From assembly GCA_935421135.1 (NCBI GenBank), contig OW285190.1, positions 19,602,501-19,666,500 of the forward strand: a stretch of 64,000 nt of DNA, read 5' to 3'. The notes under the pieces were generated by a model. The model worked only from the letters and a program-made list of their open reading frames with translations, was not told the DNA's origin and did no database searches. Within the stretch, counting starts at the first letter, position 1. Each line of letters begins with the position of its first letter. The stretch comes from Bugulina stolonifera. Its lineage: Eukaryota; Bryozoa; Gymnolaemata; Cheilostomatida; Bugulidae. Positions 1,264 to 53,400 of the stretch are shown here, in pieces. A program made the position numbers and the translations under genes.

Positions 1264-3838
1264 GGTTCCTGTATATGAGTGACTTCCTCCATTCATTTCT
1301 CACTGCCAGCCAGTACATCGCACCTCTCATGGCCAACTTTGATACGTCTATCGGGTCAAATGACTCAGAAATACTCTACAAAAACGACGGTAAGTAATCT
1401 ACTCCATACCAGTCTGAGTGTAGCAATGGTAAGCTGCTAGTATTACCACGAGCTAAAGAAGTGATAACTCCTCACATCTGTTGATAGTGATGTAAATGTT
1501 TGAGTGTAGAATATGATTACTATTATACTGTGTTATATTACAGGTGATGCCTTTATAGTCCAGTGGAATAATGTGTTTATGAAAGGAAAGAAGGATTGTA
1601 AGTATAACATACAGCTACGTACGTATAGATACAGTACAGTATATATAACTATATAGAGAGTATACTATAACATACAACTATATACATATACCATGTATAT
1701 TCAGTGCTACATGTACATTGTATATAACTATATAGAGAGTATACTATAACATACAACTATATACATATACCATGTATATTCAGTGCTACATGTACATTGT
1801 ATATAACTATATAGAGAGTATACTATAACATACAACTATACATATACCATGTATATTCAGTGCTACATGTACATTGTATATAACTATATAGAGAGTATAC
1901 TATAACATACAACTATATACATATACCATGTGTATTCAGTGCTACATGTACATTGTATATATCTATATAGAGAGTATACTATAACATACAACTATATACT
2001 TATACCATGTATATGCAGTACTAAGTTGTATATTTTTATTCAGTGGGGAAATTCTCTTTCCAAGTTCAGCTTTATAAAGATGATGGTAAGATTATAGCCG
2101 CATACAAAGACATCCCCTACCCTGTTGCTAACCTCTCTTCTGCACAGCATCCAGTCAAGGTCGGGCTCTCTGATGCCTACTATTGGGACGGTAAGTAGTC
2201 TACCCTTAGTCAATTGTCTCGGGGTGGGGGGGGGGGGCTGTGGTGAAGCTCAGTCTAGATTTCACATTTCCAACAATATGAAGGGTGAACTAGTTCCTTC
2301 GCTGCGCGATCATAGTGGTAGTCTATATTCCATACATAATAGTGAGACTATACAAACATGATAGCCTGTGTTCTATACTTAGTAGTAAGGCTGTGCATGA
2401 TAACCTGTGTTCTGTACTTGTAGTTAAGCACTACAGGACTATTTACCCATACCACACATACAATGCCTCCAGGGATAAAGTCAACTCTGACACTGCTATT
2501 ATATATACACATCTCAAGAGTAAGTTTGCTATTATATATACACATCTCAAGAGTAAGTTTGCTATTATATATACACATCTCAAGAGTAAGTTTGCTATTA
2601 TATATACACATCTCAAGAGTAAGTTTGCTATTATATATACACATCTCATGAGTAAGTTTGCTATTATATATACACATCTCATGAGTAAGTTTGCTATTAT
2701 ATATACACATCTCAAGAGTAAGTTTGCTATTATATATACACATCTCAAGAGTAAGTTTGCTATTATATATACACATCTCAAGAGTAAGTTTGCTATTATA
2801 TATACACATCTCATGAGTAAGTTTGTTATTATATATACACATTTCAAGAGTAAGTTTGCTATTATATATACACATCTCAAGAGTAAGTTTGCTATTATAT
2901 ATACACATCTCAAGAGTAAGTTTGCTATTATATATACACATCTCAAGAGTAAGTTTGCTATTATATATATTTAACATATTCTTACAGCTTGTAACATGCT
3001 GACCAACTGTGATGACTGTCTCAGATCCCAACTGAAGAATTTTCAATGTCACTGGTGCAGTGCTATTAACGCCTGTTCTGATGCCTTTGACAGGCAGAGG
3101 CAGCTCTGGGTGACCAAGGGATGTGTCTATAATGTAAGTACTCTGCCTATAACCATAGTACTGTGCCTATAATGTGAGTATGACTTGTTATTAGCTACCT
3201 GTACTGTATGTATGTCCTGATGTAATATGGGTAATGTTATTATACAGATCACACAGACAGACTGTGATCACATGTTCTCCACTCCGGTACCCTACTTTCG
3301 GAGGAAGACATTTGACAACTCAGAGTTTCAAAGATCTACTAAATCGTCAGGTTAGTTGAAATATAAACTCCGCCCACTCTAGCTATGCCGATACACATTT
3401 ATATAATATATAATGGTCTGTGTGTAATACAACTGCTAGTTCACTTACATACTACTTGTATTACTTACATACTACTTGTATTACTTACATACTACTTGTA
3501 TTACTTGTATAGGTAACAGGACGTGGGTGGCAGTGACCGCTGCTTTATGTACTATATTTGCTCTGACGGCTGCCGCTATACTTGGTGTTGTGGTATACGG
3601 CTATAGGAACCCGACTGGTACAATCGGTCAGTGGTTGGTCAGGGTAGGTGTCCTCTCTCCATTCCTATCCTGTGATATTATCCATTGTATTCAGCCATGG
3701 CATTGGTTGTTCACACTTAGTCACTTTATACTTGACCGTACTGGTTGGTTGTAGAATCGACCTTCTGAACTCTGGAGGAAGTTCAAGTCGTGGAAAGACA
3801 AGGACAGTGATGCTAACCAGATGTCACAGATAGGGTAG
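1264..3838 (+). CDS. Plexin domain-containing protein (PLXDC1/2, TEM7-like), 3' part
   Basis: Type I membrane protein; vertebrate relatives are endothelial/neuronal receptors. Eight phase-consistent exons: 1264-1389, 1544-1597, 2044-2190, 2424-2519, 2988-3133, 3248-3350, 3513-3643, 3755-3838 (TAG stop), together about 294 codons. Reading order: a nidogen-like segment with QYIAPLMANFD, VQWNNV, FSFQVQLYKDDGKI and HPVKVGLSDAY; RTIYPYH; a Cys-rich PSI/plexin repeat (NCDDC, CHWC, WVTKGC); a spacer; a TM helix (about 3545-3600); a short basic tail starting NRPSELWRKF. Vertebrate PLXDC2 has the same block order. The N-terminal exons are missing, lying left of the window or unrecognised. The exon ending at 2519 has its donor repeated 14 times (see the 33-bp repeat), so its true 3' end is ambiguous. 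Confidence 0.85.
1640..2020. repeat. 79-bp minisatellite in PLXDC intron
   Basis: About 4.6 copies of a 77-79-bp AT-rich unit, recognised by tatagagagtatactataa recurring at about 1652, 1731, 1810, 1887 and 1966. It fills most of the intron between exons 1544-1597 and 2044-2190 and does not include either splice site. Confidence 0.85.
2500..2972. repeat. 33-bp tandem repeat spanning a 5' splice site, about 14 copies
   Basis: Each 33-bp unit contains the end of a PLXDC exon (cacatctcaaga) followed by gtaagtttgc, a strong donor. Donor copies fall every 33 bp from 2520 to 2949. Because 33 is divisible by 3 and the unit has no stop in the exon frame, each copy could be exonised as 11 residues (AIIYTHLKSKF-like) without changing the frame at the next exon. 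A few copies carry atgag for aagag. Confidence 0.9.
3440..3512. repeat. 20-bp repeat next to the TM-exon acceptor
   Basis: Three copies of a 20-bp unit (acttacatactacttgtatt) lie directly upstream of the 3' splice site at 3511-3512 that starts the transmembrane exon of the PLXDC-like gene. Confidence 0.8.
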
Positions 3839-6206
3839 ACTCCAGTTATAACCGCACCAACAAACCACAGGCTCAATCATACGTGAACACAACTGACCTT
3901 GACCTCAACAGGAAGTAGATATTCACCTTGACCTTATTCTCATTTACTACTATTCTGCCATAAGTAACAAATTATCGGTGCCCCATAGTAGCATGTATAC
4001 ATTACTCCAGTACATAGTGGCTACAGTGTGTACGGCTCCTTACAGCAACAAGTACATTGAGTACTGCTCCTTACAACAACAAGTACAGTGAGTACTGCTC
4101 CTTACAGCAACAAGTACATTGAGTTATTTATTTAATTTGTTTCCAAATGAAAGAAGTTAATTTGTGATTTTAAGTTTTATCAGTAACTCCTAGTTTCAAA
4201 CGTATCCCTTTCGTATAGAACTAATGCTCCTATTGTGATGGAAAAGGTTATGCTATAGTAGCCTGAATTAATTGGGAGTTGTAGTCTCTCTCCACATTCA
4301 TATCGAGAGAAGACAACTCCTAATTCAGTATCTTGTCTCATGAAAACACTCCTACTTTGGTTTGCTCTCAACTACTAACTAGAATCATATCAGATAACAC
4401 CTTATACTCTACCTTCATTCTCCAGTGAGCTAGGACCATGAAATATCTTATAATAATTTGTTTTCCTTTCAACACTATATACAAGTAGCTCCAGAATGTT
4501 ATGCATTATTTTGTTTATTTTAAGTATTATTATACCAGGTAAATCCTCTTGGTTTATATTTTAAGATATTTTCTAACTATTCTACAACTCGATTCTCTAC
4601 ATTCCATTTTATTTTATCTACACATATGTATATATGTAGCAATTATTGTTCTATTAGAAATCTCTATCAGTGGTTGTTGTTGAAGCTTCAACTATCTACA
4701 AATATTTTTTATTATTTCACTTTTAAGCAATAAAAAGATCTGCTTTTGGATAATGAACGGGTTTCTCTTCTAATACTAGACTGTCCTATTCAGTAGCCAG
4801 AAACCCTCTAGCAGAGAGAATGTGTGTGGAATATTCTACAATGTAGAACCTTCTGTCAATGGAACCTTTGAATTGAGCACCAGGATGGAGTAGAGATGTA
4901 CATGATCTTATCCCAGTGAATCGGGATCAGAGTGAAATGTCTAAAATATCCAGTTTCCTGCATATAATATTAATTAGATCATTGATAAAAAGATGGGAGT
5001 GTTTGAATTTACAGTTTGTAAAGCTGATCTTGGGAATTAATATCTTCTGTCATACTCAAAACCAGGTAGGCCATTGTTTATTAACAAATAAGGTTTAGAA
5101 TATTACAATAGTTGAAAAAACAGTGGAAATAGGAAACTTATATTATATTGCTACACTCCCAGGGCAACTGGGGGAAGATGAGAGGGTTGAACTACAATGG
5201 GCTATGTACATGTAGTGCTCCCATTTTACTGTAGATCGGAGTTGCCCCAACATGACACCATGAGGAAGACAACTCCAAATTTGTTAAAATAGCAACCCAG
5301 GTTCTTTGACGCGCTATCATTATAATTGCGCGGGACTTTAATTACACCGCCGACATTATGTTGATCCAATGATGTCTCAGTTATCTAGAATGTAGCAAAC
5401 GTGAGCATTCCTTTCCAACTTCTCAATTTATGAACTACAGCTAAACTCTCAACAAAATCCAGTTCCGTTTGAGTTAAAATTCAAGTTAAATTCAATAGAA
5501 TAGAAAATTGAGGTTAAATTCAATAATAATAGTAAAATTTTAAAGATTTTAGATTTATGTTCAAAGTAGCATAGCTGTTGTTCTGAGAATTGATCCAAGT
5601 ACAAGTACCACACTGAGGGGCGTTAGTACAAGTAGTTTTTTGACATTCACATTGAGAGCAAGTACAAAAAATACAAATTAATTATCATTGATTATGATTA
5701 TGAAATTACAAGTAAAACTACATATACATGTAGGACAGTATCTTGTAATTGCATATCCAGATTGTTATGACAAGTGCTATAAAAATGGATGTCATTGTTA
5801 TGTAACAACGCATTGGTGATCGAGACGATTAGACGTGTTTTCCGCGGCGCTCTTGAATTGCAACTCACATAATAATATTTTGCATGCTATTCTTCTATAA
5901 ATTTATTCTCTTTCAATACTCTAACTACTAATATCTGGCAGAACGACTATACTGACTGCTACAGAATCACTACTACTAAATTATTGACTCATGACTGTAA
6001 CTAAACGTTGCAGTACATCAAGATCAATTTGAACTTGACGGTTAATTTGATTTTTCATATTCATATTATATTCATAAACTTTTTGCCATTGAGAGAACAG
6101 TAGGTAAGAGACAAGTAGCATTACAAGTAGCTACTTATATTTTTGTTTTTCTTCTCTCTTTTTTTTTATTTTTTTTCTTTGACAAAGCTCAATAACTATA
6201 AGAACA
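3839..6206. other. Intergenic region between PLXDC-like gene and LINE
   Basis: No coding sequence recognised. It should hold the PLXDC 3' UTR; a possible polyadenylation signal aataaa is at about 4729. About 3 copies of a 30-bp unit (ctccttacagcaacaagtac) lie at 4036-4120. Two short inverted-repeat segments with ggagttg...caactcc ends lie at about 4273-4321 and 5236-5274. The last few hundred bases probably include the LINE 5' UTR, whose start I could not place. Confidence 0.5.
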
Positions 6207-6962
6207 ATGTCGAATGGCAAAGACAAATGTGGCGGGTGCAAAAGAAATATTAAAGGTGATTGCATTCAATGCAACATTTGTAACCAGTGGTTTGAAACCA
6301 AATGTTCCGGAGCTGATCAAGATGCTGTGAATTTTCTCCAATCAAAAGCTGGTAAAAGTAGTACAATTCATTGGTTTTGTCCAAGCTGTGAGATAAGTTC
6401 AAAAAAAATTCTGCAGCAAATGACTGTAATGGAATCGAAGATTAGAGAAATAGATGCAGAAGTGAAAAGCTTGAAGGAGGTAGTATTAGATATTTCTACA
6501 AAAACTTCTCAGTTATTGGACCAACAAAGTTCTAATTCCCAGTGTAGTCAGAGTGAAAATCGAAATGATAGTAAGCTCACCGTCAATACTGTTGTAGAGG
6601 AACTCAGAGAGAGAGAAAAAAGAGCCAAGAATGTTGTCTTCTCGGGTGACGCTTCTCAAGAGAAAGTTGTGGCTTTCTTGGCTAAAGTACCAGTTGATTG
6701 CGCAGGTATAAAAAAAATTGGACCAAATACTAAACAAATTTTCTTAGTTTCCTTTCAAAACGAGGCAGATAAATGGAAACTGATTAGTAAAGCGAAGGCA
6801 CTATGCACATCTATAGCAGAGTTTAAAGGAATGTATGTCAATCCAGATCTGACAAGAACTGAACGAGATGAGCAGTATAAGTTGAGACAAGAATGTAGGG
6901 AAAGAAAGTCAAAAGGTGAAAATGTGAAAATCAAAAGGGGAGCTATTGTAATGGTCCAATAG
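6207..6962 (+). CDS. LINE ORF1 protein (PHD-like finger, RNA-binding type)
   Basis: 251 residues. The N-terminus carries a Cys-rich PHD-like zinc finger (CGGCKRN, CNICNQWFETKC, HWFCPSC, about residues 8-62). A predicted coiled coil follows (about 72-105), then a C-terminal domain ending in NPDLTRTERDEQYKLRQECR and GENVKIKRGAIV, a motif typical of ORF1 proteins of CR1-like elements. In the family such proteins bind RNA and assemble the RNP. The ATG at 6207 follows a T-rich 5' leader. No frame breaks are seen. Confidence 0.8.
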   Translation: MSNGKDKCGGCKRNIKGDCIQCNICNQWFETKCSGADQDAVNFLQSKAGKSSTIHWFCPSCEISSKKILQQMTVMESKIREIDAEVKSLKEVVLDISTKTSQLLDQQSSNSQCSQSENRNDSKLTVNTVVEELREREKRAKNVVFSGDASQEKVVAFLAKVPVDCAGIKKIGPNTKQIFLVSFQNEADKWKLISKAKALCTSIAEFKGMYVNPDLTRTERDEQYKLRQECRERKSKGENVKIKRGAIVMVQ

Positions 6963-7007
6963 GCTATAAATAATGGGAAAAGTCAACAGGACATAAACCT
7001 AAAAAAA

Positions 7008-9704
7008 ATGGAAATGTTTTATGTAAATATTAGATCACTAAGAAACAAAGTCACGGATATTCACTGGGAATTAGCTTCTAACCCTAACATAAAGATTATC
7101 TGTTTGACTGAAACTATGCTAGACAACCATATTCAAAGTGGTGAATTAAAAATACCAGGTTTTTCGTTGTATAGGAATGACAGAAATATAAAAGGAGGAG
7201 GGGTTGCTGTGTATGTGCATAACTCCTTAATATCTACCATAATACAAGTAGAATCCATGGCTGAAGCCCTTTGTCTCAATATTACTTTAAAAAATGCTCA
7301 ATTTATACTACTGAATGTATATAGGCCTCCAGGTAATCATGACTCTGCTTTGATCCCCGATTTGTTACAGGAGGTGTGCAACATCTCTTTGAAAACAAAC
7401 TCTTCACTAGTGGTCTGTGGTGATTTCAATTTCCCTGCAATCTTGTGGGAGGATAACACACATTCTGGAAATAAATCACTGTATGACCCATTCATTGCTA
7501 AAATTTGCTCTCTAGACTTGCAACAACATATATTTGAACCTACTCATATAAAAGGTAACATTCTAGATCTAGTATTCAGTAGTACTTCTATCATTGACCA
7601 GATTGTTGTGCAGCCACCTACTTTAAGTGATCATTCACATATTACTATATCTCTAAATCTTTCCATCAAATCTAGTGAAAAACCTACAAAACTTATTTAC
7701 ATTTATAAAAATGCGGACTTAAATAGCGCTACTCAAATTTTTGAACCTTTCCAAACAGAAATCAACCGCCTAATAAACGATCAGATGCCCATTGATGTGG
7801 TATATGACAAATTTCAAGAAGGTGTTTTACTGTTAAGAGATGCATGTGTTCCAACTAGATTGATTTGTACCAACCAACAGAATCCTCCTTGGATGAATAA
7901 TACATTAGAGAAAGCTTTAAAAAAACAAAAGCATCTTTACAACCAAATGAAGACTTGTCCATCCACTTATATTAAGTCCAGATATAGCAAGCTCCGGCGA
8001 GCAAACAAAAAAGCCGTCAAGTCTGCTAAAAAGAGCTATTTAAATAAACTCTTATATAAACCCCTACACACAGGCAATTCTAAACCCTTCTACAAATATC
8101 TGCGGCAATGTAGAAGTAATGACTCTAACTTGATTCCTAAGCTGAAACATAATAATGTCATAGCAGAAACATCAGAGCAAAAAGCAACTGTATTTAATGA
8201 GTTTTTTGAATCAGTCTTTACAATAGACGACAATAGATTTTGTCCTATAATAAATTTTTCTCCACAAGGACGTGCTGCAGAACCTCTTCAGGTTGACAAA
8301 AACGGAGTTTTAAAGTTGTTGAAAGACATCGATTGTGCAAAGTCTTGCGGTCCAGACGAATTAACAGGGAAAATGTTGAAAACTTTTTCTTCAATAATTT
8401 ATACGTCTGCATCCGAAATTTTTTGTTACTCCTTAAAGACTTCCACTCTTCCATCTATATGGAAAGTGGCTAAAGTCATTCCAATTCATAAGAAAGGAAG
8501 CACGCAATCTGCCAGCAATTATCGTCCTATATCACTTACTTGCCTATTATGTAAACTTTTTGAACATATATTATCATCACATATAAATAACATACTAAAG
8601 GACTTGAATTATTTCACTGATAGCCAACATGGTTTTAGAGCTGGAAGATCATGTGAAACCCAGTTGGCCCACACACTTGGCCATATTTCCTGCCTGCGTG
8701 ACACTGGTAAAACAGTAGATCTAATTATCTTAGATTTTTCTAAAGCCTTCGACTCTGTCAATCACAGAAAGTTATTGTACAAGATTAGAAGCATTGGTTT
8801 TGATAGCCTAATTTATTCATGGCTAGCGGAGTTTCTTCACAGTAGAGAACAATATGTGGTAATCGAAGACACGCAGTCGACTAGGAAACCAGTTGTGTCT
8901 GGGGTTCCACAGGGTTCCGTTTTGGGCCCTCTTTTATTTTTAATTTATATAAATGACCTTCCACAACAAATTCAATCACACTGCAGACTATTTGCAGATG
9001 ATGCTATTATATATAACACCAGTGAAGATAAACAAATTTTGCAAGAGGATTTGAAAGCTCTCCAGAAATGGTCGTCTGAATGGCAAATGTCATTCAATTT
9101 TTCCAAATGCTTCTTTTTACAGGTTGGTTCAGATCATCAATCACAATATTCTTTTGATAACAAAGCAATAGAGCGAGTAACATCTCATTCCTACCTAGGT
9201 GTGTGCCTCCAAAATAACTTGAAATGGGATTCGCAAATTTCCAGAATGGTAACTGCTGCAACCCAAAAATTAGGTCTACTAAGAAGAGTCTTAAAAACTG
9301 CAGACACCAAGACTCGAAAAACAGCATATTTCGCAATAGTACGACCTCATTTGGAATATGCATCCCAGATATGGGACCCACACCAAAGGAAATACATAAA
9401 ACAACTTGAAAAAATACAAAATCAAGCATTAAGATTTATTTTCAGAATAAAAGGGCAAGTAAGTTTCACAAACATAAGAGAACACACCCAAATAGAATCC
9501 TTAACTGAAAGGCGAAAAAAGGCCAGACTAAAACTGTTCCATCGTTGTATTACTGAGGGGATTGAACCACCTTTCGATTACAATTACCTCAATAAGTATA
9601 ATACGAGACAATGCCAAAACACTTACACACCATACATAAAAACGAATCAATTTTATTACTCCTTCTGGCCAAAAACCATACGTGATATGCGTCTTGAGAG
9701 CTGA
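7008..9704 (+). CDS. LINE ORF2: AP endonuclease and reverse transcriptase
   Basis: 898 residues, normal for CR1/L2-type ORF2. The N-terminal APE-like endonuclease shows NIRSL, LTET, GGGVAVYV, VVCGDFNFP and SDHSHI (about residues 5-220). The reverse transcriptase shows NYRPISL (about 504), QHGFRAGRSC, LDFSKAFDSVNH, GVPQGSVLGPLLFLIYINDL and the catalytic FADD (about 661). A C-terminal region with RPHLEYASQIWDP follows. The protein nicks target DNA and copies the element RNA by target-primed reverse transcription. All key motifs are present and no stop interrupts the frame, so the copy may be competent. Confidence 0.93.
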   Translation: MEMFYVNIRSLRNKVTDIHWELASNPNIKIICLTETMLDNHIQSGELKIPGFSLYRNDRNIKGGGVAVYVHNSLISTIIQVESMAEALCLNITLKNAQFILLNVYRPPGNHDSALIPDLLQEVCNISLKTNSSLVVCGDFNFPAILWEDNTHSGNKSLYDPFIAKICSLDLQQHIFEPTHIKGNILDLVFSSTSIIDQIVVQPPTLSDHSHITISLNLSIKSSEKPTKLIYIYKNADLNSATQIFEPFQTEINRLINDQMPIDVVYDKFQEGVLLLRDACVPTRLICTNQQNPPWMNNTLEKALKKQKHLYNQMKTCPSTYIKSRYSKLRRANKKAVKSAKKSYLNKLLYKPLHTGNSKPFYKYLRQCRSNDSNLIPKLKHNNVIAETSEQKATVFNEFFESVFTIDDNRFCPIINFSPQGRAAEPLQVDKNGVLKLLKDIDCAKSCGPDELTGKMLKTFSSIIYTSASEIFCYSLKTSTLPSIWKVAKVIPIHKKGSTQSASNYRPISLTCLLCKLFEHILSSHINNILKDLNYFTDSQHGFRAGRSCETQLAHTLGHISCLRDTGKTVDLIILDFSKAFDSVNHRKLLYKIRSIGFDSLIYSWLAEFLHSREQYVVIEDTQSTRKPVVSGVPQGSVLGPLLFLIYINDLPQQIQSHCRLFADDAIIYNTSEDKQILQEDLKALQKWSSEWQMSFNFSKCFFLQVGSDHQSQYSFDNKAIERVTSHSYLGVCLQNNLKWDSQISRMVTAATQKLGLLRRVLKTADTKTRKTAYFAIVRPHLEYASQIWDPHQRKYIKQLEKIQNQALRFIFRIKGQVSFTNIREHTQIESLTERRKKARLKLFHRCITEGIEPPFDYNYLNKYNTRQCQNTYTPYIKTNQFYYSFWPKTIRDMRLES

Positions 9705-9974
9705 TAAATAGTTCTTTTTTTTTTTCTTTTCTTTTTTGTTGTTGTATGACATGATAAATAATAAAAAATATATAAATACTATTCTAAAGCACATATAAAA
9801 AATATAAAAAAAAAATATTAAACATTATAAATTATATATAAAAAGGGAATAAAAGTTATCGAAAAAGAGAGAAAAAGAAAAAAAAAAAAAAAACATCCAT
9901 ATTGTGTTCCCACATCTCTTCCGTTTTCCTGACGGTCTCAGTGGGAAAATTTAAAAAAAAAAAAAAAAAAAAAA

Positions 9975-11184
9975 CATATAATTAGCCGGGGCTAATTATC
10001 ATTATGGTAGCACTCAGCTTATCTGTGGGCCTAATGGGATGACAGCTTGAGCTTAGATAAAAGCTTTAAATTGAAATTGGTATTTGACCAGAAAAAGCTA
10101 GTAGGTACAAAACGAAAATGAAAGCATTATTTTATAAAATAAGAATCATAAAACGCCTGTTTCTCTCACCATTTTAAAGACTACTATAACTATTGGCTCT
10201 TAAGTGTTAACAATCTAGCAAGTACAAGCAAGTAGGTAAAAGACTTGAGTTGGTATTTGACCAGAAAAATAAAATTTGGTAAATGCGAAATAGTATTAAA
10301 ATTAAAATGTCCCTTTTTGTCACAGTGGTAAAATCTACTATTGGCTCTTAACAATATAGCACGTAAAAGTACAAGCTATACAAGTACAAGCAGGTAGAAG
10401 TGTTGACAAGTAGGTACAAGTACAGGTATTTTTTTTACAAAGCTAGTACTAGCAAAGTATCTACTTGTAAGTAAACTAGCATAGCTCTGGCAAATAGTAG
10501 TCATTAAGACTTACAGTCAAACGGTTGTAACTACTAAAGTCTTGGGAAGTTCTCTATGCTGCCAACTCTAATATAGCTTTGTCTAGTAATGACTCAAAAC
10601 CTCACTTTGTATTTGGTATTAGTTCTTAATTTGAACTTAATTATATATATTTTTTTATATTTTAATTTATTTTTAATTATATAATCTTGTATAATTGCTA
10701 GCGACCACTTACTAGTAGAGTGAACCTCAACTAAAGTCAAAACCGATTAAAGATAACTATTTAAATATTTGTATTAATGTAGTTAACTGATTAAAGCAGA
10801 ACTGTTAAGTACATAAACTATGCCTATAGGCTATATCTTATGGTTGACATTTGATTCTTGCTCAGCCCACCAACGTAGAGGGAATTAGGCTTGTAGTAAT
10901 TTTTATCACAAACTGATTGTGAATCATCTAGTCTTGACTTTGTGATTTACTGGCTAAGCTGCAGGCATTGGGGTACTAAAGAGAAATGATTTCGTATGGC
11001 CGTTGTTAGGAATGTTGATGTCTCTTATAACCATTGATATTTTAAAATACATGTAGCTGTCAAATCTATTAAATACTAATTGTTATTTACTCAACTACTG
11101 TCGTCCTATTTATGTTGGTTGTATTATAATTTAAAATTTGGTTCTTTTCTTAGTTACTGCTTATGTAAAGCTGTGACACCTAGA
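9975..11184. other. Intergenic region and 5' leader of GRAMD4-like gene
   Basis: No coding sequence recognised. 10,200-10,480 is rich in short acaagta-type motifs. A likely acceptor (ttcttttcttag, ending 11152) precedes the ATG at 11185, suggesting a 5' UTR intron. Confidence 0.45.
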
Positions 11185-14100
11185 ATGGCATCAGGAGGAA
11201 CTGGTGGCCTGAGCTTCAGGTCTCTTCTGAAGGACAAGATCAAACACTCTGCTATCGGGGAGACGGTCAGCGGGAAAATCAACAGCATAATTAAACACGA
11301 GTATAAAGATGTATCACATGTGAGTTTATAGCCATAGTTTTACTCGATTGTCAGGTTGCTCTTTGTATTTACGGTGGCATATATAGTTATTAAGACTGCC
11401 ATCCATGGAGTAACTGGATTTCGATATCCTTGGAAGTGTACCAGAATATTAAACTGCTTAGAAATTAAATGCGCCATGTAACATCATATGGGACTATGTA
11501 TTTATATTGTATTTTGGCTGCATTTTGATAGTTGCAAGACTTCAATCTAATCTCAAAGACTACCAGGTTCTTCTGGAACCCATATGAGAAATATTATATG
11601 ACTATATATCTACATTGCTTTGGTTATCCATATGCTCTACTTGATACTAGCACATTATATACATGTTGTACTCCTCCCATTCAACAGTCTCCCATATAAT
11701 ATGGTTTTCAATTAACCGTAAATTTGTTAGATATAACTTAATGTGAAGCCTGTTTTACAGCCTCAACATCTGGCGGTGGGAGCAGAGCAAGCTGTTAACT
11801 TCACACCTGGCCATGTACGCTCTGCTTCCATGGACTCTGTTGGAAGTAGCAGAGAGAATACGGGTTCCTTCAAGGAATCTCTCTCAGCAAAGAACTCGTC
11901 AGCTAGTGACAATCGTAGGAACAGTTTTGAGTTGGTAGACTCAGCAGAGGGAGTGAAGGAGGCTCAGAAGGCCGACATGTACGAACAACAGTTGGTTCAG
12001 CTTCAGGAGCAGCTTGTCAGCTCTATGATTGAGAATCAGAATATTGGTGAGTGACTGCATTGGAGTGGTCAGTGGTGTCCACTCTCTATCAGTGGTGTCC
12101 ACTCTCTATCAGTGGTGTCCACTCTCTATCAGTGGTGTCCACTCTCTATCAGTGGTGTCCACTCTCTATCAGTGGTGTCCACTCTCTATCAGTGGTGTCC
12201 ACTCTCTATCAGTGGTGTCCACTCTCTATCAGTGGTGTCTACCTACTAGTCTATATGTATGTGTCTGTATCGTTACATAACTACTATGTTATAGTAATGT
12301 ATTACTGTATTGCTGTGATGTTACTCTATTGTTGTATTACTGTATTGCTGTGATGTTACTCTATTATTGTATTACTGTATTGCTGATATTATTGTAGCTG
12401 CTGAGCTGAAGACGATTAAGGATGATAAACAGTTGCAAAAGATGGAGAGGGAACTCGCTCATGAGAGGAAGAAAAATGAGGAGTTAGTCACTCGGATTAC
12501 AAACCTCACACGGCTAAACACTTCTAGGTAATATCATATGACCTTGACATGTGACACGACTCAGTAGTTATAGCTAATATAGAGTAAACTATGAGGAGTG
12601 AAATGGCTGTTTATTCTACTAAAACACATAATATGGTGTATTTATAGGCAAGAGAGAATAACTCCTAGTGATACTGAGAATACAAGTGAGGAAGGAGAGA
12701 GAAGTTCAGCAGTGAATACTACCACTGCAGTTATTAGAGATGATAGCGAGAGATCCGCTACGGAAACACATGGTAATATATTTTAGTGCTGTTGATTGTT
12801 GCTACTGTTATATGAATGATGTTGTGATAACAAAACATTGCAATTGACTGTTGACTGTATGGGGAGATAACCCTAGTAATAGAGGTGATACTGCTACTTA
12901 TGGACCAGTGGTAGTCATGTATTAGACAACCATCTCATGTGTGTACGCTGTGGAATTTACTGTCAAATACAATGTTAGAAATATATATGTAAATGAGGTA
13001 TAGCCTGGGGTACAATGTGTATAGTCTGTAGTACTATGTACATATAGTATGTAGTATAATGTGTGTATAGTCTGTAGTACAACGTGTGTATAGTCTGCAG
13101 TATAATGTGTATAGTCTGCAGTATAATGTGTGTACAGTTTGTTAGTACAATGTGTATAGCATGTAGTACATATGATATGTAGTACAATGTGTGTATAGTC
13201 TGTAGTATAATGTGTGTATAGTCTGTAGTATAATGTATATACATGTACAGCTAACCTGTCACATATTGATATTTGGCAGGTAGTTAAGTGCTAATTATGG
13301 AGTCAATGAACCATATTCTAGTTTGTTTGGAGTAATTATATAACTGTACTATACTGTAGAAGCTATACCTGTATATATTATATTATGTGTATATTAAATA
13401 TATCTCTCTTATACTGTATATATTATACAGTAATGTACTGATATATATACATGTAGTTATCTCTCCTATACTGTATATATTATATAGTAATGTACTGATA
13501 TATATACATGTAGTTATCTCTCTTATACTGTATATATTATACAGTAATGTACTGATATATATACATGTAGTTATCTCTCTTATACTGTATATATTATATA
13601 GTAGTGTACTGATATATATACATGTAGTTATCTCTCTTATACTGTATATATTATACAGTAATGTACTGATATATATACATGTAGTTATCTCTCTTATACT
13701 GTATATATTATACAGTAATGTACTGATATATATACATGTAGTTATCTCTCTTATACTGTATATATTATATAGTAATGTACTGATATATATACATGTAGTT
13801 ATCTCTCCTATACTGTATATATTATATAGTAATGTACTGATATATATACATGTAGTTATCTCTCTTATACTGTATATATTATATAGTAATGTACTGATAT
13901 ATATACATGTAGTTATCTCTCTTATACTGTATATATTATACAGTAATGTACTGATATATATACATGTAGTTATCTCTCTTATACTGTATATATTATATAG
14001 TAGTGTACTGATATATATACATGTAGTTATCTCTCTTATACTGTATATATTATACAGTAATGTACTGATATATATACATGTAGTTATCTCTCTTATACTG

Positions 14101-41400: not shown

Positions 41401-44400
41401 TTGTAATAGAAAGCAGACCTAACACTGACTACTTTGTAATGGCCAAAATAGTAAGCAAAGTTAGAAACCAAGGAACTGACCAACCCAAGACAATGACTGA
41501 GGGGCAATTAGTGTAGAGCTACACATAAACGTACACATAGTAAGGGCGTATAACTCACCCTTCCCATCTCTACTAAGTTTGTAACCATGACAATAGCCTT
41601 TGCTCTTTGCTGCCAGACCATCAGCCAGAAAGCATCAACTGTAGCGGGTTGTGGTCCTGAGTTTATACAACAAATATTGTGAGAGCTTTGAACTAACTAT
41701 CAGTATATCATCACCAATACATACCATACAGTCGTGACACGAGCATAGTCAAAGCAAGACGTCGTCGGCTTACATGCGGACTATATTCTGTATTGTCTAC
41801 ATATTGATTGACGAAGATATTGGAGCTGTATGAGACAGACTGCTGATATAATTGTAGAAATGATAACAAATATGGTGTGCAAGTATAACAGTATACATAC
41901 AGTACTATATAGTAGCTACCTATGTGTAAGTATAACAGTATACATACAGTACTATATAGTAGCTACCTATGTGTAAGTATAACATCATACATACAGTACT
42001 ATATAGTAGCTACCTATGTGTAAGTATAACAGTATACATACAGTACTATATAGTAGCTACCTATGTGTAAGTATAACAGCATACATACAGTACTATATAG
42101 TAGCTACCTATGTGTAAGTATAACAGCATACATACAGTACTATATAGTAGCTACCTTTGTGTAAGTATAACAGTATACATACAGTACTATATAGTAGATA
42201 CCTATGTGTAAGTATAACAGCAAACATACAGTACTATATAGTAGCTACCTATGTGTAAGTATAACAGTATACATACAGTACTATATAGTAGATACCTATG
42301 TGTAAGTATAACAGCATACATACAGTACTATATAGTAGCTACCTATGTGTAAGTATAACAGTATACATACAGTACTATATAGTAGATACCTATGTGTAAG
42401 TATAACAGCAAACATACAGTACTATATAGTAGCTACCTATGTGTAAGTATAACAGCATACATACAGTACTAATAGTAGCTACCTATGTGTAAGTATAACA
42501 GTATACATACAGTACTATATAGTAGCTACCTATGTGCAAGTATAACAGTATACATACAGTACTATATAGTAGCTACCTATGTGTAAGTATAACAGCATAC
42601 ATACAGTACTATATAGTAGATACTTATGTGTAAGTATAACAGCATACATACAGTACTATATAGTAGCTACCTATGTGTAAGTATAACAGCATACATACAG
42701 TACTAATAGTAGCTACCTATGTGTAAGTATAACAGTATACATACAGTACTATATAGTAGCTACCTATGTGTAAGTATAACAGCATACATACAGTACTATA
42801 TAGTAGCTACCTATGTGTAAGTATAACAGCATACATACAGTACTAATAGTAGCTACCTATGTGCAAGTATAACAGCATACATACAGTACTATGTAGTAGC
42901 TACCTATGTGTAAGCATAACAGCAAACATACAGTACTAATAGTGCTGTAGCTACATGTGCCTCTCCGCTGCAGAATATAGCTTACCTTGAGATGGGATAA
43001 ATATTTCATCCTTAGAGTAGCCCTACAAATGGCAAACATGTGTAATAATATATATGTATATTGTAAGACTTGTTGTAGAGTGGTGTTATACATGTGTTTG
43101 TAAATAAGAATGAATTCAGTAATCTACATGAATTGTAGCCTGTGAGGGATTTCCTGTTTCCACCCTTTTCTCTACCCTAGGAGCATATTTATGTCACCAA
43201 ACTATGTTAGGCAGCACAAAGTGGTACCACTTTGAGGCAGCACTAAGTACTCAAAGTGTGAGGTTTAGTTTACTGTGACCTTCACACTACTTGACCCCAC
43301 CCTTGCTGGTTGAGATATCACACTCACATTAAACAACACTATTCTCCTACCCAAGTATGTACATTCTATAAGAGAATAGCTATGGTATATTGTATAATAG
43401 TATATTATGTTACTATATACCTGGAGATAGGAAGCATTGATAAAGTCTGTACCAGGTTTACCCTCTCTGTCCAGTATTACTCTGGTAGAGTCCTCTGCAC
43501 GTGTATCAATATAATATACATTAGTAGACAGTTACATGTGTGATTATACATGTGCATAGTGATAGTTTACATACATTTTACATGTAATAATGTAATGGTT
43601 TCTGTGATTTGGTGCGGTCGTCCTTGGACGACTATCGACCCAGAAATGAAGTGCCTATGAGTGGTAATAGGACTTCGCATTACATGAAAGATCGAGCGGT
43701 CTCAGTAGCCCAAATACTACCAAAGACGACCCATCTGATCTCAAGTCCGACCTTCAGACTATACAATGAAAGAGAGTAGTTCAACCTAGTAGGCGGTTCG
43801 CTAAGCGAATGACCTAGTAAAAGGAAGAGAAAGTCCCTGTATCAAGTATAGATGTGTCTTTATTGAAAGCCAAGTGTAGACTGAGACAATGAACAGTAAA
43901 ACAGTGCCCTTTATATAGTATAAGGACTTCCGGCCGACGTGACGTCGGGAAAAGACGACGTGTGGTCGTCCGGAAGTTGCGCAACAAGATGGCCGCCGGA
44001 AGCCCGACGGCCGACCCAAAATAGGTCGGGTTCTACAAAAGTTGCTTATAATGGTCCAATTCATGTACAAAATGAATATCAATGGATTCTGAGAGGTCGG
44101 GCCTCTGTACATGGGTATAAAAGGCATTAAAAGACTTAGATATAATCATATAATCATATATAACAATATACGAGTGAAGTACAAGCAGATATATACATGT
44201 ATGCACGCAATAATGAGTGTCAGATGTAAGATACGACTGGGCGTACCATCACAATAATACATGTAAATGATGTAAGTAAACATAAACATACCTGGGTAGA
44301 GTCCCACATACTTGCATTGGCCTTTATTTTCAGGTAAAACAGCGACTGTCATCTGAGGTTTGGGCTGTTTCTCCAGGATCTGGTAACATAAGTAACATCA

Positions 44401-47400
44401 TTGTTACAGATAATATTATATTCTCGGGTTTGACTCGTCAAAGAATCCAAAACATCTAGAGTTCAGACAGGATGCAGATGATGGCAGTAAGCTGAAGGCA
44501 TCAGCTGACCAATGAGTAGTGATAATACAGTTGAGTTTACAGCCAATCAGATGTTGATGTGTCACATGTTTATTCTCTTTAGTTAGTCAATTGTTGAGAC
44601 TCAGTAAACCCCCAACTCTACATATACATAGACTCACACCTCAACACATGCAGTGTAATTGTATAGCGGATACATCCTTGACCCTAAGTAATATTATATG
44701 AATAGTAGTACATAGATTCCATACCGCGTACTGGTGAAGGATATGCCCCTCTCTCTCAGCTATATACTGGGCTAGTTGGTTCACTGGAACTGAAGCATTT
44801 CTTGGCATTAAAGGGGGAGGTGACTCAGGCTTTACTCCAACCACTGCAGGGGATGTTGTTGGGGAAGGATCTAGGTGTAGGGGTTCGACTATTGTAACGT
44901 AACACATAATATACAGATTAGATAATATGTCTCACATACTCTACTCCCTGCACTACTTTTTCCACTCATACGGGATATGTATGTATTTACACCAAATCAG
45001 TGATAACTGACTGAGACTCCCCTGCTACAGCCTCCAGTAGCTCATCTAACATGGCTGACTGTATAATATCATGGAACCACCTACATATGTTGTTGAACAG
45101 GTGCACCAAAGGCTCTGCCATCAGAAATAGATATGACATGATTGCTACGCAAAAATCCCATTTAAAATGATTTTTGAGCAGTGAATCCAGGAGTACTAAA
45201 GCTAGAGTTTTGGATGTACTTACTATCCGGCATTGAGATATTTTCATATGTGGGACCTTTTGGTTGGTTTTCTCCCCTGTAACACAAAATATGACCATTG
45301 TGTGAAATAGTGTCAGTCAGTGTAAATGTACATGGAGTTGTGAATCTGTTCTCTCATTAAAACATACAAGTACATACATATGCATATACAGTGTAACAAT
45401 AGCAGTAGCAGCGTTGTATCAAGGTGTAAGGTGAAGTATATAATAGTACAACATCTACAGACAGCAGCTTTAATACCTTCTTCTAATGAAGATGAACCTA
45501 GCCAATAGGAAACCAACTACTGCCAGACAGACGACCAGGCTGACGACAATACCAGCTATACAACCTCCTCCACAAACTACAGCTGGTGCAACTGTAGTAG
45601 TAGCAGTCTGAACCTCTGTGAGCCCTGGTGCTGTAGAAAAGTGATTGACAATTATATACATGCATATATATTATATATGTACGTTATGTACACGGTATAT
45701 ATATCTAGGCCAAGTTTGATTTCATTCAATCCACTTACATGAACAAAAAATCTAAGAAATAGCATTTGATGAACGGAAAGTGTGCATTTACTGTCCACCA
45801 CCTGATGAACAGCATAATTTTCATCACAGCACAGTTTCACTAGTTGAATTCCTGAAACCTATGTAAACATACATTGGTATGCAACGTACGGCATATTACA
45901 TGTAGTATGATAGTACTACTCAGTACTGTTACACTAGCTAGTACTCCATAGAGTAGAATATACTACATACTTTTGAAGGTGATAGTTGGCAGATAGTCAA
46001 CAAACTCTCTATCGTCACCCTATAAGGAATAAAATGTCAAATATACATGTAGATTATCAGTACTTTAGAATGATCCTACATTAGCAGTAGCGGCGCAGTA
46101 GCGACGTAGTAGTGGCATAGTAGCAGTGCAGTAGTGGTGCAGTAGCGTCGTAGTAGCGGTGCAGTAGCAGTAGCTGCGTGACACATGTGTACATACATGT
46201 AATACGTACGCATGTGTCATGTAACGTCTGGCAAGAGAAATTTTGTAACTGAACAGGAAGTAGCCTGCCCTTACGTTGAACACAAGTGTAAATTGAGGTG
46301 TCCTTTGACTGTATTATTGTTACTTATTCAGATAGAGTAGAGACAGAGTATAGAGATACAGAGTTATCTTACCTTAACCACTACAACTACAGTCACTTGT
46401 ACTACATACTCTACTCCAGGAACCAAGGCTACATTCTGATATCCACCATACATCTTCTCATCACCAAGGTCAAAGTTTAATACACCGTTTTCTGCACCAG
46501 TACCATTGATCTCTGCTGTTATGTAACATGATAATCCCTTCTCTACGGACACTGTATAACTGTAGAAGTTGTTAGAGTCACATGTTCCACTGTCAAATGA
46601 GAATGCTCGTTTTCTTCTTCTCTCCTTGGTACCCCTATCCACTATAATTCTGTATTTGCTGAAAAATGATGCTAAAATAAAATACTACCTCAGAACAGAG
46701 TCTGCAATGGCACTCATCAGAGGAAAGGAGGTGAACTCTTTAAGCAAGAGTAGGTAGGCTAATGCCATGTATGCTACTGTATACAATAAGGATTACATAC
46801 GTACCTCACTTCTCCATTTTCATAAGCTTGTTCTTGAAAGCTGGTCTTTATAAGATTCCCTGGCAACGGACTATCCACTTTTGGTTGTGTCTGGTTTGTT
46901 ATAGCTACAAGTATACAGCCGGATAATGATGCACGTACATATACTCTGTATATTCCCATATTGTATAAACATGCACATCTGCTCTGTGTATTCTCTAACT
47001 TACCTTGTAACTGTGTGTATCCATACTCTACTACTGATGTACTCTCTCCAGCTCCATTCACACCTCTAACTTACCTTGTAACTGTGTGTATCCATACTCT
47101 ACTACTGGTAGACTCTCTCCAGCTCCATTCACACCTCTAACTTACCTTGTAACTGTGTGTATCCATACTCTACTACTGATGTACTCTCTCCAGCTCTATT
47201 CACACCTCTAACTTACCTTGTAACTGTGTGTATCCATACACTACTACTGGTAGACTCTCTCCAGCTCCATTCACACCTCTAACTTACCTTGTAACTGTGT
47301 GCATCCATACTCTACTACTGATGTACTCTCTCCAGCTCTATTCACACCTCTAACTTACCTTGTAACTGTGTGTATCCATACACTACTACTGGTGGACTCC

Positions 47401-50400
47401 CTACAGCTCCATTCACACCTCTAACTTACCTTGTAACTGTGTGTATCCATACTCTACTACTGGTGTACTCTCTCCAGCTCCATTCACACCTCTAACAGTA
47501 CACGTTACTTTACTAGCTGAAGTAAGTCCACACGCTGTAGGCTTCTGTCCGTTCTCCAAGTCTGTTACTGTTGTATTGTGGAGAGGTCTGGAGACATTGT
47601 GATCTACTTCACTGGGAATGGTGCCCGAACTACACCCAAACTGTAATAACCAACCGTCTAAGCACTGTAACTCTGGCTACTACCTCAAGTACATAGTTGG
47701 CTCATAAATCAGATGTTGATTCATTGAAAATGTAACTGCACTGTTTTATATGTATGGCAGAGCAGAAACTCAAAGTAAAACTTTCTGCACTGAAAAACAC
47801 ATACAACAGATCTACAGCCTAGCAGCCTAGCAGATACCAGGATTACAGCTACCTTTAGCACGTTTACATCTGACTTACCATGACCCACCAATTAATCCTA
47901 TTTTCTACAGACATACTTTCAGATCTACAAATACTTACCAGATAGTGGGTTATAATTCCATTTGGTCTCTCAGGAGGTTTTATATTTAGAGTTACACAGC
48001 TGGAGTTGAAGTCTAATTCAACTTTCGGTGAGTCACTTGGTACTACAACACAATGATTGTAATATGGTATACTAGTTTGTTATCTACTACATGTACATGT
48101 ACATGTGTATTTGCTGGAATAGATTCAGTGATATGGTAAAATGAAGAAAGGTGGTAGGGAAGGTGATTTGCAAACACTGTCACTTCAGCTGAAAAATGGG
48201 TGTTTGACAAATAACAAGTGAGAATGGCAAATTCATATAATGTTTATCCCACGTAAAAGTAAGTACTCCTATCTACATGTAGTTTCTATCCATGTTACAG
48301 CATTGGTTGCAATCGTACATCGCACAAGTCTCTTTAAAATCTATGACTTACCAAGTTCTCCTGTCTGCACAGTCCAGTTAACTAGAGTCGTAAAGTTCTG
48401 GTTGTTAACTGCTCTGATACTAAGAGTGTAGTTAGTCAGAACATCTAAACCATAGAAATATGATCCTGTAGGAATGTACTCTGTGTCTACATCTAGTAGT
48501 CTGTACTCTAGAGTCAGCAATCTCTTACAGTTTATCTTCATATTCTGTTGACATGATTATACAATATTACAAGTAGAGTGTACTTCACCAGGAATATCAG
48601 ACATTGCATATGTAAAGTGAACATTGTAGTTCACTTTATGTCTGCATGTCGTGTATATTATGTAGGTCTAGCAACCAAACAATGATACATTATATGACTG
48701 ATGAGTTGGGCAGCTACAAAAGTAAAGGCGAGGAAAAGTACAAGAATACAATAAGAGAATTAAATTATGCTGCACTGTAGAACTTACATAATATGATATG
48801 ATTTACCTCTAAAGGAATATCCAGGGTAAGTTTAATCCTCTGATCATTACCATCTCCAGTATCACCAGTAGCAGTACCATTAGTAATGTTGGTAGTAGTA
48901 TTGTAACCCTCTAGTTTGATGTAAGGCGAGAGATCACTGGGAAGTTCAGGGTCTAGAACCAATAGAAAATATTTATTTGTAAATCTAGTGGATAGATGGA
49001 TTAGCAGTATTCACAAGTAAGTGTGCTGAAATATCAGTACACGTACTTGTGAACGTGGTAGTACTACACCATATATTAAAACACATGGTAATAATAAAGT
49101 AGAATTGAGTGAAACACCAGCTGAAAAAGTAAATAAAAGACCCAGAGGTAGCTTACTTTGATCAACCAAAAATTGCAGACTGCCAGCTCTTTTAATGGAG
49201 GTCGAGGACAGTTTTACCGCATTTACTTGTAAACTAGATCTGTCTAAGAGGCTATGAAAAAACCTACGTGTATGGCAAAAATCAATATAATCATGAGTAC
49301 ATTATACACTACTACCATGGTCACACTGGAGCTGACATAGTTTTATTACAATGAAGAATAAGGATAAAACTACCTGTACATATGATTTTTATCTCCTCAG
49401 TAGCAATATCACTCTTTCCTTTATTATTCACAGCCCTTAGCTCACACTGGACAAGCTGATTGGCTGAGAATCCACAAATTGGAGCACTGTCTGCTAAACC
49501 CTCAGTAGTTTTCATCCAATTAGAGAATTCTGTACACTTGTACTGTAAGTAAGAGTAAAGCACATACACTTGCTTTCATCTAATTAATAATTATACTTTT
49601 ACTTTTTATCGTAAAGGCAGATGAAATAATTAATAGTTGTAACAATAGTTGTAATGGGTTAATGAAATACAGCCATATATGTACATCCACTTTTACAGTG
49701 TACATGTAAATCGTACATGTAAATATGTGTTAATATATAAATCATGTACATGTATACATGTATAAGCATTGCTATGTTGTCATGAAGGTAGATTATAAAC
49801 TGATAGTCATACTCAATACCTCGTAGGATGTGATTGGTCCATTAGGATACTCAGGTGGCAGCCATGACAGTTCTATACAACTTGAGTTCTTCACCTCCAG
49901 ATCAAAAGACTGAGGTGCTAGTTGTGGTCCTACATATAATATAAAGCAACTGTAACTGCAGACTTCGTGCTTTCTACTGTTGATAGTGAGACTGTAGTAA
50001 AGTAGCAAAATAGTTCTCACAATGAGGACATGGTGTATAGACTTACTATATTACTAAACACCCAAATAGAGTCTAACTATATGTACATGTAGTATTCTAT
50101 ACTCACTAAAACCCTCAGATACGATGCTCATAGCCTCAGGTTCTGATACATTTCCAGCATTATTAACGGCTCGTACCCAGAATATCACCTCTTTATTACC
50201 ATCTGTATATACAGTTCTACTTGTAGAGGTCTTTGTTATTGTCTTAGAGGTTGTGGTTGGGAATCTAGTCTCATACTCAGCTATACTCTCACAGTTTATG
50301 GAGGATGGAGTCTGGAACAGAATGGTTGAAATATAATGAAATATTACCCATAGCTAGTTACATAATTTCTGCCCATGTGAGCACTGAAATGAACTAACAG

Positions 50401-53400
50401 TGACATTATGATTTTATTCTCTGTCATTGCATACAGTAACCAGTGAGACTATACAGTTAGGTCTATAATATAAAACTCACATTCCAACTGACTAAGTACT
50501 TCCTCCTTCTCCTTCCTTCATTATCCTCTATACCTTTATTTATAAACTGTATAGACAGAGGGGCTGACGGAGCTGGAAGCAAATAATTTGAACTAGTACA
50601 ATGTTTACTTCTACTATATTAGATAATATAATAGTGGGTGAATAAATCTGATTATTATAAGAAGCTAATACAAACATTCTATATAGCTTAGTACACCTGT
50701 ACCTGAGGAGGAAGTGTTATTCAACTATTCACTAATATACATGTATTATAATAGTCAGTATTGCACTGATATATACTTTTTCAATACATAATGTATATAT
50801 TATAATATTATAACACATCATGTACACCCATTTGTATTCTATATTCCCAACATTTACACCACATTCCAATAGGCTACTCTATGCCATATTCTGTCTCTGA
50901 TATACACAGAACCACATCATACATGTAATATGTACCTCATGACACAGTTATACATAGGGCTGCGCTCTCAACCCTTGCACATGTCACCAGTATACAGGTA
51001 CATGGAGAGGCTGTATGTGTATATAGACTATAGAGTCTGGCTTCATGTACACGTTATTTTACACATGCATGTGATTACCAACCTGCACACAGAGTTGTAG
51101 CTGATGGTGATGTTAAAGTATCTCCTATATCTGCATCATTTATAGGTCTGACCTTACACTTTACTTCACTGTAAGCTGGATATCCACATACCAGACTGTT
51201 AAGTTGATCTGAGGTGACCAGTGTCCACTCAGTGTGGTCAGTACACTTGTACTGTAAAGCATTTAGTAATCAATATTGTTTTTTCCCACGTAATAACAGA
51301 GATAACTGTTACCATCTGTTATTATATGAAGTGAAAATATGTAGAGTGAATTACAGCAGATACAGCTCACACTGGGATATGTGTCAACGCTATCCAAAGC
51401 AATATTGTTTATTGTATGCCTTGCTCAGATATAAATGTAGTGACGAATTTCAAATTTCAACAGTCAAACTTTCTTTAACCAACCCAGACTATAGAATCGA
51501 TAGTACAGATTATTTAGTTATGGCATAACACTCACCTCATATCTCAGATTGTCTCCATTAGGATACTCTGTTTCATTCCAAGATACAGTAACACATGAAC
51601 TGTTGTATGTCTGTATGTCTACAGTAACTAATCCCCACTGTGGTTCTGTATGTATATGGGAAAACTACAGTTAATAGACAGTTGAAATCTAACATACATC
51701 CTCAAATTAAATTATACCTCAAAGTGTAATGGCTACAAGGAGATATTGTAATGTTTTCAGTGCAGGTTTACATGCAGGTGCCGAGGCACGAGCATGGGAA
51801 GGGCTTGGAAGTTGGTAGAGGACGACCAAGTGACCTTCCACACATTACATAAAAGAGTGAACAGTTATTAGGTGCTCTTGTTATTATATATCTGACGTAG
51901 GCCGATGCTGAGACTCATTAAAGAGTCCAGGGTCGACGTAGGTCTTGTAGACTTTATACTCCAGAGGAGTGCAATGAAAGATCTGGTATTCTAGGATCTT
52001 AAGCCCGACGCTAGATTCACATAGAATCCGGGATCGACCTAAGTCATAGAAGTGGTGTAGAGATATGCTTAAACGAGGATGGGGATAAACTCGAGCCGTA
52101 TGGATCTATGGATCCGCCGGTGGAGTTACCCGCCTACAAGAGTAAGCCTCTATAGGTTTGAGTTAGGAGATGTTGCTTTATTCGAGCGCAATCAACAACT
52201 GATTTCATTCAGAAAATGCGCTACCTTATATACTAAATCTACTTCCGGCAAAAAGAGGCCGCTAAAGTATCGGCCAGCCGATAAGGTATCGGGTCCGGAA
52301 CTGATGCAACAACATGGGTGGTTCCGCCCGACGTCGGCCACAAAAAGGGTCGGCCTTGGCACAAAAGGTGCTTACAATGGTCTGAAATGGAAAGTGTATA
52401 AGTATGAGCCTATTCCAAGATATCGACCTTAAAAAGTACATGGTAAAAGACTCAGTTTAATACAATCAGATAAGAGAAGATAATTGCTTATAATATGTGG
52501 GAAAAACCAAGTGTAATTGCAATAATCTGATTGGAGGATAACAATAATAGAGCACACGATAAAGTGGTTGGTTATAAAATAGTATAAGCATGCATGTATA
52601 ATAATGGTACAAGGTAAGACAATAATGCATGAATGAATAATATGGATAAGACAGTGTCAATGTCACTGTGCATGCGTAATCATGTACGCAATGTTAACGT
52701 ATATAAACCATAAGAACTCAGTCTATGTCTAGGCAGGCTGTTTCACCACAATATTTACATGTATTGATTTATCATTAGTATACTTACTAAAGCTCTCAGA
52801 CGTGATGCTCATAGCCTCAGGTTCTGATACATTCCCAGCATTATTAACAGCTCGTACCCAGAATATCACCTCCTCATTACCATCTGTATATACAGTTCTA
52901 CTTGTAGAGGTCATTGTTATTATCTTAGAGGTTGTGTTTGGAAATCTAGTCTCATACCCAGCTATACTCTCACAGTTTATGATGGATGGAGTCTGGAACA
53001 TCACATAGAATAGTGCGTGTGGTACGCCATTATTATTAGGAGAAGTGTACAATATAAACATAATTATATAGGCCAATCAACTCTTTCCATACCTGCCAAC
53101 TAACCACATTATATTCCCCTTACTCTATAATAGTACACTGTAGTGAAATATAACCCTACCATACCTGCCAACTAATCACATATTTTCTTCTCAATCTACC
53201 ATCACTAGTAACAACTTCAGTATCTCTGAACTGTATGGAGTTGGGAGGTGTGGAAGCTGTGAGTAGAACATAGAAATCATATGAGACTCCATAATATTTA
53301 TACTGATTAAGTCATTTGAAGGTTACAGTGGGTGCAGAGTATAACAATGATATTATGACACTACAAATGCTTTGGTAGACTGTACTACTGTATTACTGTA

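Follow-up and report, generated by a model that had tools for sequence, protein, structure and literature searches.

Tandem duplication of exon-intron boundaries is described in two animal groups. In amphioxus, such duplications are termed "mirages": minisatellite-like repeats of the boundary, on its 5' or 3' side, with units of 10-160 bp (PMC3087553; PMC3902484). The available excerpts of these papers place mirages in the globin genes BflGb6 and BflGb9, Adh3, TnC, and PGBD5, and report normal splicing by reverse transcription PCR (RT-PCR) together with haplotype and somatic instability (PMC3087553; PMC3902484). In chicken, "exon stuttering" denotes short intronic expansions, some of them founded on the edge of the neighboring exon, donor or acceptor included (Hron et al. 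2026, PMC12954441). According to the available parts of that article, the exon stays intact, the origin is local, 190 of the 236 introns lie on dot chromosomes, and the phenomenon is described as unreported in other vertebrates; the main text of the article does not use the term "mirage" (PMC12954441). The present analysis concerns comparable arrays in the bryozoan Bugulina stolonifera. They were found in a 64,000-nucleotide stretch (C4:19602501-19666500, denoted the window) that holds a PLXDC-like gene, a GRAMD4-like gene, and a receptor tyrosine phosphatase (RPTP) gene.

The bryozoan arrays are real and are the same known, little-studied structure as mirages and exon stuttering. Like mirages as excerpted, they have repeat units that span the exon-intron boundary with exon bases (9 of the 30 gene-body arrays), affect several genes, and involve both 5' and 3' boundaries, here seven donors and two acceptors. 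As in the chicken cases described, a lateral exon part with its splice site is copied into the adjacent intron while the exon is unaltered. Unlike the described mirages, they belong to another phylum, occur many at once in three neighboring genes, and are accompanied by a genome-wide bias toward donor words; amphioxus mirages are backed by RT-PCR and haplotypes, whereas the bryozoan arrays are known from the sequence of one assembly. Unlike the reported exon stuttering, the cases lie in AT-rich sequence of contigs C1, C2, and C4 (each at least 19.6 Mb) and not on dot chromosomes. A search of the open-access literature found no bryozoan case. What is new is the third lineage and the whole-genome donor-word bias, which is not met in the available portions of the amphioxus and chicken descriptions. 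The lancelet and chicken cases were each presented as a peculiarity of one lineage; a third unrelated lineage and a genome-wide count make the question general and testable: is duplication drawn to donors, or is a copied donor simply more likely to persist than a copied acceptor? Both possibilities matter for intron growth and origin, and annotators are warned that exon ends in such genomes may have identical decoys.

Arrays at the Junctions of Three Neighboring Genes

Tandem Repeats Finder (TRF) reports 85 rows in the window, which merge into 44 arrays with a period of at least 10; 30 of these are within gene bodies. An earlier note on this DNA had listed nine arrays as copying a splice site plus adjoining exon bases. 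All nine are present in the TRF output and the sequence, with positions, periods, and copy numbers about as it gave them (TRF counts 2.3 copies in the GRAMD4 acceptor array of 42 bp). Exon bases and a junction are included in eight of them, whereas the array at 23866-24031 stops at the final base of the intron. The junction-spanning array at 3127-3180 was absent from the note's list.

The PLXDC-like gene is on the + strand and extends up to 3838. Its larger array (2494-2969, 33 bp x 14.4) spans the exon end at 2519, has GTAAGT in 14/14 copies and a unit that stays in frame, and occupies almost all of intron 2520-2987. At the next donor (3127-3180, + strand, 20 bp x 2.7, exon end 3133), the middle copy is degraded and has no donor. 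Both junctions (THLK/TCNM at 2519 and GCVYN/ITQTD at 3133) are confirmed against Bugula and Watersipora.

The GRAMD4-like gene (+ strand, 11185-26739) has 15 exons in the final model, with which the exon numbering of the earlier note agrees. Four of its donors are duplicated, each at a junction that bryozoan homologues confirm. The array at 15373-15874 (56-58 bp x 8.8) spans the exon end at 15381 (TVFI/VYMYLCW) and has GTATGT in 8/8 aligned copies. The array at 23115-23345 (39 bp x 5.9; exon end 23144, ATKGQ/NKLGQ) has GTAGGT in 6/6 copies, and that at 24121-24272 (30 bp x 5.1; exon end 24141, TVVFVA/GWFLG) has lost GT in the last of five; the units of both are in frame and open. The fourth is a 46 bp x 2 duplication at 25669-25759 (exon end 25701, LTP/SFLCY). 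An acceptor array at 15151-15247 (42 bp x 2.3) includes the exon start at 15238, where PE/VVEPL is likewise confirmed, and has an in-frame stop in its upstream units. The array at 23866-24031, with 19-bp units, copies the acceptor AG and zero bases of the exon that starts at 24032.

The RPTP gene (- strand, 27446-60647) contains FN3-like exons, and a palindromic insert of 7 kb breaks it up; certain protein names, FN3 among them, were assigned by eye. One FN3 exon, whose donor is at 47429, carries a donor array at 46993-47496 (71 bp x 7.1) with GTAAGT in 7/7 copies. The exon of the second phosphatase domain (D2; 28374-28519) carries an acceptor array at 28499-28757 (42 bp x 6.1), whose unit has an in-frame TGA. 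These acceptor copies were read directly in the sequence, since the copy finder recovered one copy only, and AG is present in every copy read. Across the seven donor arrays, the donor is kept in 14/14, 8/8, 6/6, 7/7, 4/5, 2/2, and 2/3 aligned copies.

Homologues identify the source of the repeats. The PLXDC-like protein is 75% identical to that of Bugula neritina and 64% to that of Watersipora subatra, and the GRAMD4-like protein 69% and 49%, respectively; the GRAMD4 query still contained EHKLVNKTPCAVVI, the first part of a later-discarded exon. That exon, placed at 24773-24866 in the first model, was wrong and was dropped on comparison with Bugula. The exonic stretches within the GRAMD4 and PLXDC units encode residues that are conserved in the Bugula and Watersipora proteins, which have no repeats inserted there; the exon end is therefore the founder of these arrays. 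Because the relatives' proteins confirm the junctions without extra copies, the outermost copy would suffice for splicing and the other copies can be intron. Comparison with bryozoan homologues underlies the junctions of GRAMD4 and PLXDC; those of RPTP are based on a gene finder and visual reading. Four RPTP stretches match the Pfam phosphatase model (29208-29408, 39122-39277, 39404-39571, and 41550-41666), none of which is the array-bearing exon; the D2 exon with the array, scanned alone, gave no Pfam match.

Donor Words in Tandem across the Genome

Word counts cover 235 Mb in 27 contigs. A tandem pair is defined as a word followed by the same word 12-42 bases later, on both strands, and the control is the word written backwards. 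The strong donor word AGGTAAGT is in tandem pairs in 3165/17835 occurrences (17.7%) and its backwards form in 105/10478 (1.0%). For AGGTGAGT, compared with its reversed control only, the counts are 1535/13274 (11.6%) and 178/7999 (2.2%). Weakening the donor at +5 (AGGTAAHT) lowers the fraction to 2251/38421 (5.9%; backwards 335/31716, 1.1%), and destroying GT by one base (AGHTAAGT) lowers it to 289/23031 (1.25%; backwards 277/34607, 0.8%). Strong donor words are thus paired 5-18 times as often as reversed or killed words. The acceptor-like word TTTNCAGG has no excess over the whole genome (501/32319, 1.55%, vs 416/18212, 2.3%, backwards). The earlier note had proposed a genome-wide check of repeats against splice sites; run with words in place of annotation, it bears out an excess for strong donors and gives none for the acceptor word. 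The donor effect, which was unexpected, tracks donor strength and is not seen for the acceptor word; it may stem from the site or from the word.

Many of the TTTNCAGG rows listed belong to two dispersed repeats, each with a short sequence (TTTACAGGAACGCATCAACATTACT and TTTGCAGGGTGTCCAG) copied in tandem inside it; both recur among the rows listed on C1 and C2.

A Proposed Model of Local Duplication at Exon Ends

The arrays are quite probably locally made minisatellites founded on exon ends, of the mirage or exon-stuttering kind, with the strong donor word over-represented genome-wide. A short junction-spanning segment, running from within the exon to within the intron, would first be duplicated in tandem. 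The FN3 array offers an example of how such a unit may be bounded: a 7-bp direct repeat, GTTAGAG, is found in the exon and the intron, 71 bases apart. Expansion and homogenization would follow, presumably by slippage or unequal exchange as in other minisatellites. The old mRNA would still be obtained by splicing at the outermost copy, be it the first donor or the last acceptor, the remaining copies being intronic, and for this reason the duplication should be tolerated.

The two kinds of junction would not fare alike. A donor duplication would leave the first donor intact, while an acceptor duplication would place competing AGs upstream, and selection should purge such arrays more often. Both acceptor units (15151-15247 and 28499-28757) have in-frame stops. 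Competing AGs and in-frame stops in acceptor copies can account for the donor-acceptor difference without a hot spot. The donor bias may be mutational, with donors prone to duplication; it may be one of survival, with donor copies harmless and acceptor copies harmful; or it may lie partly in the word itself.

Evidence against the Model and Alternative Explanations

Several results weigh against this model, and they are given here with the alternatives that they favor. Plain chance is one: in a minisatellite-rich genome with short exons and introns, arrays might meet junctions at a background rate, the window being merely lucky and rich in arrays. In a curated test, with exons curated and each array reduced to one or two copies, the genes of the window have 132 junctions in 32,092 bp. 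Of the 30 gene-body arrays, those spanning a junction by at least 1, 4, or 8 bases on each side number 9, 9, and 8. Uniform placement predicts 5.9, 5.2, and 4.3 (P 0.11, 0.055, 0.045), and placement with wholly exonic positions barred predicts 6.9, 6.0, and 5.0 (P 0.22, 0.12, 0.09). An uncurated overlap test gave 13 hits in the window, of which five are inside the transposon-like palindrome and were excluded from the curated test. The excess is therefore marginal, in a window picked for its array pattern, and the note's claim that randomly placed minisatellites would rarely meet so many junctions goes too far for the window: with a junction about every 240 bp in the genes, 4-7 hits are expected against the 8-9 seen. 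The window is also dense in arrays, with 44 per 64 kb vs 78 per 200 kb in evenly spaced stretches of C1.

Loci chosen irrespective of arrays point the same way. They comprise 20 stretches of 10 kb, evenly spaced along the initial 27.6 Mb of C1, and eight phosphatase loci, 28 in all, annotated with a hidden Markov model gene finder that was trained on those loci and the window with realistic intron costs. In the 20 C1 stretches, 7 of the 78 arrays span a predicted junction vs 6.3 expected (P 0.43); when inspected, two of these proved transposon-like and a third doubtful. A junction-centered test in 20 loci gave no excess either. Under a site-centered criterion (at least 19/24 bases repeated within 120 bases), the 28 loci have no junction excess, with duplicated donors at 4/221 (95% interval 0.5-4.6%), acceptors at 1/224, and noncoding points at 232/16800 (1.4%); at 20/24 the counts are 2, 1, and 171. 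Among AGGTAAGT donors, 1/9 is duplicated. Ordinary junctions are thus not detectably preferred, within wide limits, and these locus tests overlook diverged arrays and exons missed by the finder. One such array, a donor array of 58 bp x 3 at L026, was unreported by TRF; junction-array structure is present there and at L023 and L005.

Against chance stand the site-centered result in the window, where 6/66 donors are duplicated vs 38/1000 noncoding points (though 0/66 acceptors), and the genome-wide pairing of strong donor words. The GTRAGT motif is in the units of 9/44 window arrays vs 3.5 expected and of 5/78 arrays elsewhere vs 2.6, with control words at 0.4-2.0 fold, which is suggestive only. 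Chance as the whole account is possible but doubtful.

Comparable doubt attaches to the second alternative, that the word rather than the splice site is array-prone. Arrays rich in GTA/TAC words could make AGGTRAGT common through composition or replication, unlinked to splicing; the weakened word, after all, also reaches 5.9%. A composition model was built from 53-72 sampled array units, junction arrays excluded, at orders 1-2 and also order 3. At orders 1-2, it yields 4- to 5-fold of the 17.7-fold gap between AGGTAAGT and its own reversed word and 1.6-2.1 fold of the 5.2-fold gap for AGGTGAGT, so that the corrected contrasts are about 4 fold and about 3 fold. The killed-donor contrast is the clean one, as composition favors AGGTAAGT over its reversed word but predicts near parity with AGHTAAGT: 1.0-1.3x at orders 1-2, below 1 at order 3, and up to 1.4x with junction arrays included. 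The observed gap is 14-fold.

Many-copy arrays inflate pair counts, and the excess per cluster is an estimated ~4-6 fold. Clusters listed in the first 2.74 Mb of C1, counted by eye against occurrences derived from genome-mean density, number 16 for AGGTAAGT (of ~208), 7 for AGGTAAHT (~448), and 3 for AGHTAAGT (~269); AGGTAAGT differs from the other two (Fisher P 1.6e-5), and the weakened word is close to the killed one and far under AGGTAAGT. This region is richer in AGGTAAGT pairs than the genome mean by ~2.7x (100 rows vs 37 expected). Scaled by pairs, some 500 AGGTAAGT arrays are estimated genome-wide, with a per-locus excess of 4-5 fold.

One of the 16 AGGTAAGT clusters is in L009, with no exon seen alongside; the other 15 were fetched in list order. 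In 8 of the 15, contrary to a pure word effect, the first donor copy is where an open coding exon ends in sense. An exon end is placed at the array by the gene finder in L029, L031, L032 (weak score), L035, L038, and L043 (in a frame that differs from the one read by eye); in L030 it ends the exon at an earlier GTGAGT copy, and the L033 exon was assigned by eye. Pfam matches the array exons of L038 (condensin, 1e-25), L030 (dynein heavy chain, 2.8e-11), and, barely, L029 (MENTAL, 1.2e-4), and a scan of the L031 and L043 exons gave no match. Two arrays (L034, L036) lie antisense to a gene, on its acceptor side, and five (L037, L039, L040, L041, and L042, the last extending beyond the fetched stretch) have no visible exon. 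AGGTAAGT is array-prone outside visible donors too, and a donor-specific reading is consequently unproven.

Separately, a 41-bp array of ~45 copies is present at C1:394240-396095, its units carrying AGGTAAAT and an opposite-strand GGTAAGT word (ACTTACC).

A stronger claim, and an unlikely one, is that functional 5' splice sites, not acceptors, are hot spots of tandem amplification that scale with donor strength, for example through transcription- or U1-linked slippage. If so, head-to-tail self-copies would be present at hundreds of donors, introns would be steadily lengthened, and material for new introns would be supplied. Purging of acceptor arrays does not by itself explain an excess over plain intron sequence.

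Still less probable is that the arrays are the raw material or footprint of intron gain, in which a duplication bearing splice sites makes a new intron between its copies. Intron gain by segment duplication is reportedly a model of Rogers, with a similar one for amphioxus globins, and a potato RdRp gene is said to have gained an intron by tandem genomic duplication. As in the potato case, the duplications here span splice-site-like sequence; unlike it, the arrays seen lengthen an intron. Among 63 introns tested for end-to-end direct repeats, GRAMD4 intron 15382-16067 (686 bp) has 22/24 identity between the 24 bases around its donor and its acceptor (span 15376-16081, + strand), a score of 19 that ~0.3% of 600 mismatched donor-acceptor pairs reach. 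Of all introns seen, this one would fit the amphioxus intron-gain model best, its matching ends being a candidate tandem-duplication signature. It is the one intron of the 63 left with direct repeats, as an array reaching both ends explains the other two top scorers. Both copies also hold four bases beyond the spliced mRNA, for which a simple AG/GT duplication is insufficient.

Selection for junction redundancy or alternative in-frame exon ends, raised in the earlier note, is improbable and unsupported: three window donor arrays (33, 39, and 30 bp) allow in-frame read-through and the donor hexamer varies less than the other bases of the units (3/252 vs 58/1631, P 0.054, in 6/7 window donor arrays; suggestive), but the period is divisible by three in 7 of 18 donor arrays (the seven window arrays, L005, L023, L026, and eight fetched arrays; one third expected, P 0.39), both acceptor units contain stops, bryozoan relatives have no repeat insertions, and GT is lost in copies at 24121-24272 and 3127-3180.

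Other Features of the Window

An Rfam search gave no match. The palindrome in the RPTP intron (29731-37199) has arms whose longest pairs are 97-99% complementary. Its ends are GC-rich, its open frames are short, and repeats of 80 bp and 31 bp lie near its center. One of its fragments has a DTDS motif that we take to be reminiscent of B-family DNA polymerases; a Pfam scan of the fragment gave no match and does not confirm this. Within a single GRAMD4 intron, a 10-bp unit is repeated ~679 times over 6.7 kb (16323-23004). Between PLXDC and GRAMD4, at 6188-9458, are remains resembling a non-long-terminal-repeat retrotransposon, with a reverse transcriptase match of 6.5e-4 that is under the curated cut-off. 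RPTP introns also hold three copies of a 420-base repeat (37727-38147, 40018-40438, and 43684-44104) with near-identical minus-strand translation. Two separate arrays in RPTP, at 39592-39924 and 40732-40825, have closely related 45-bp units, and this kinship suggests that a piece of one array was copied.

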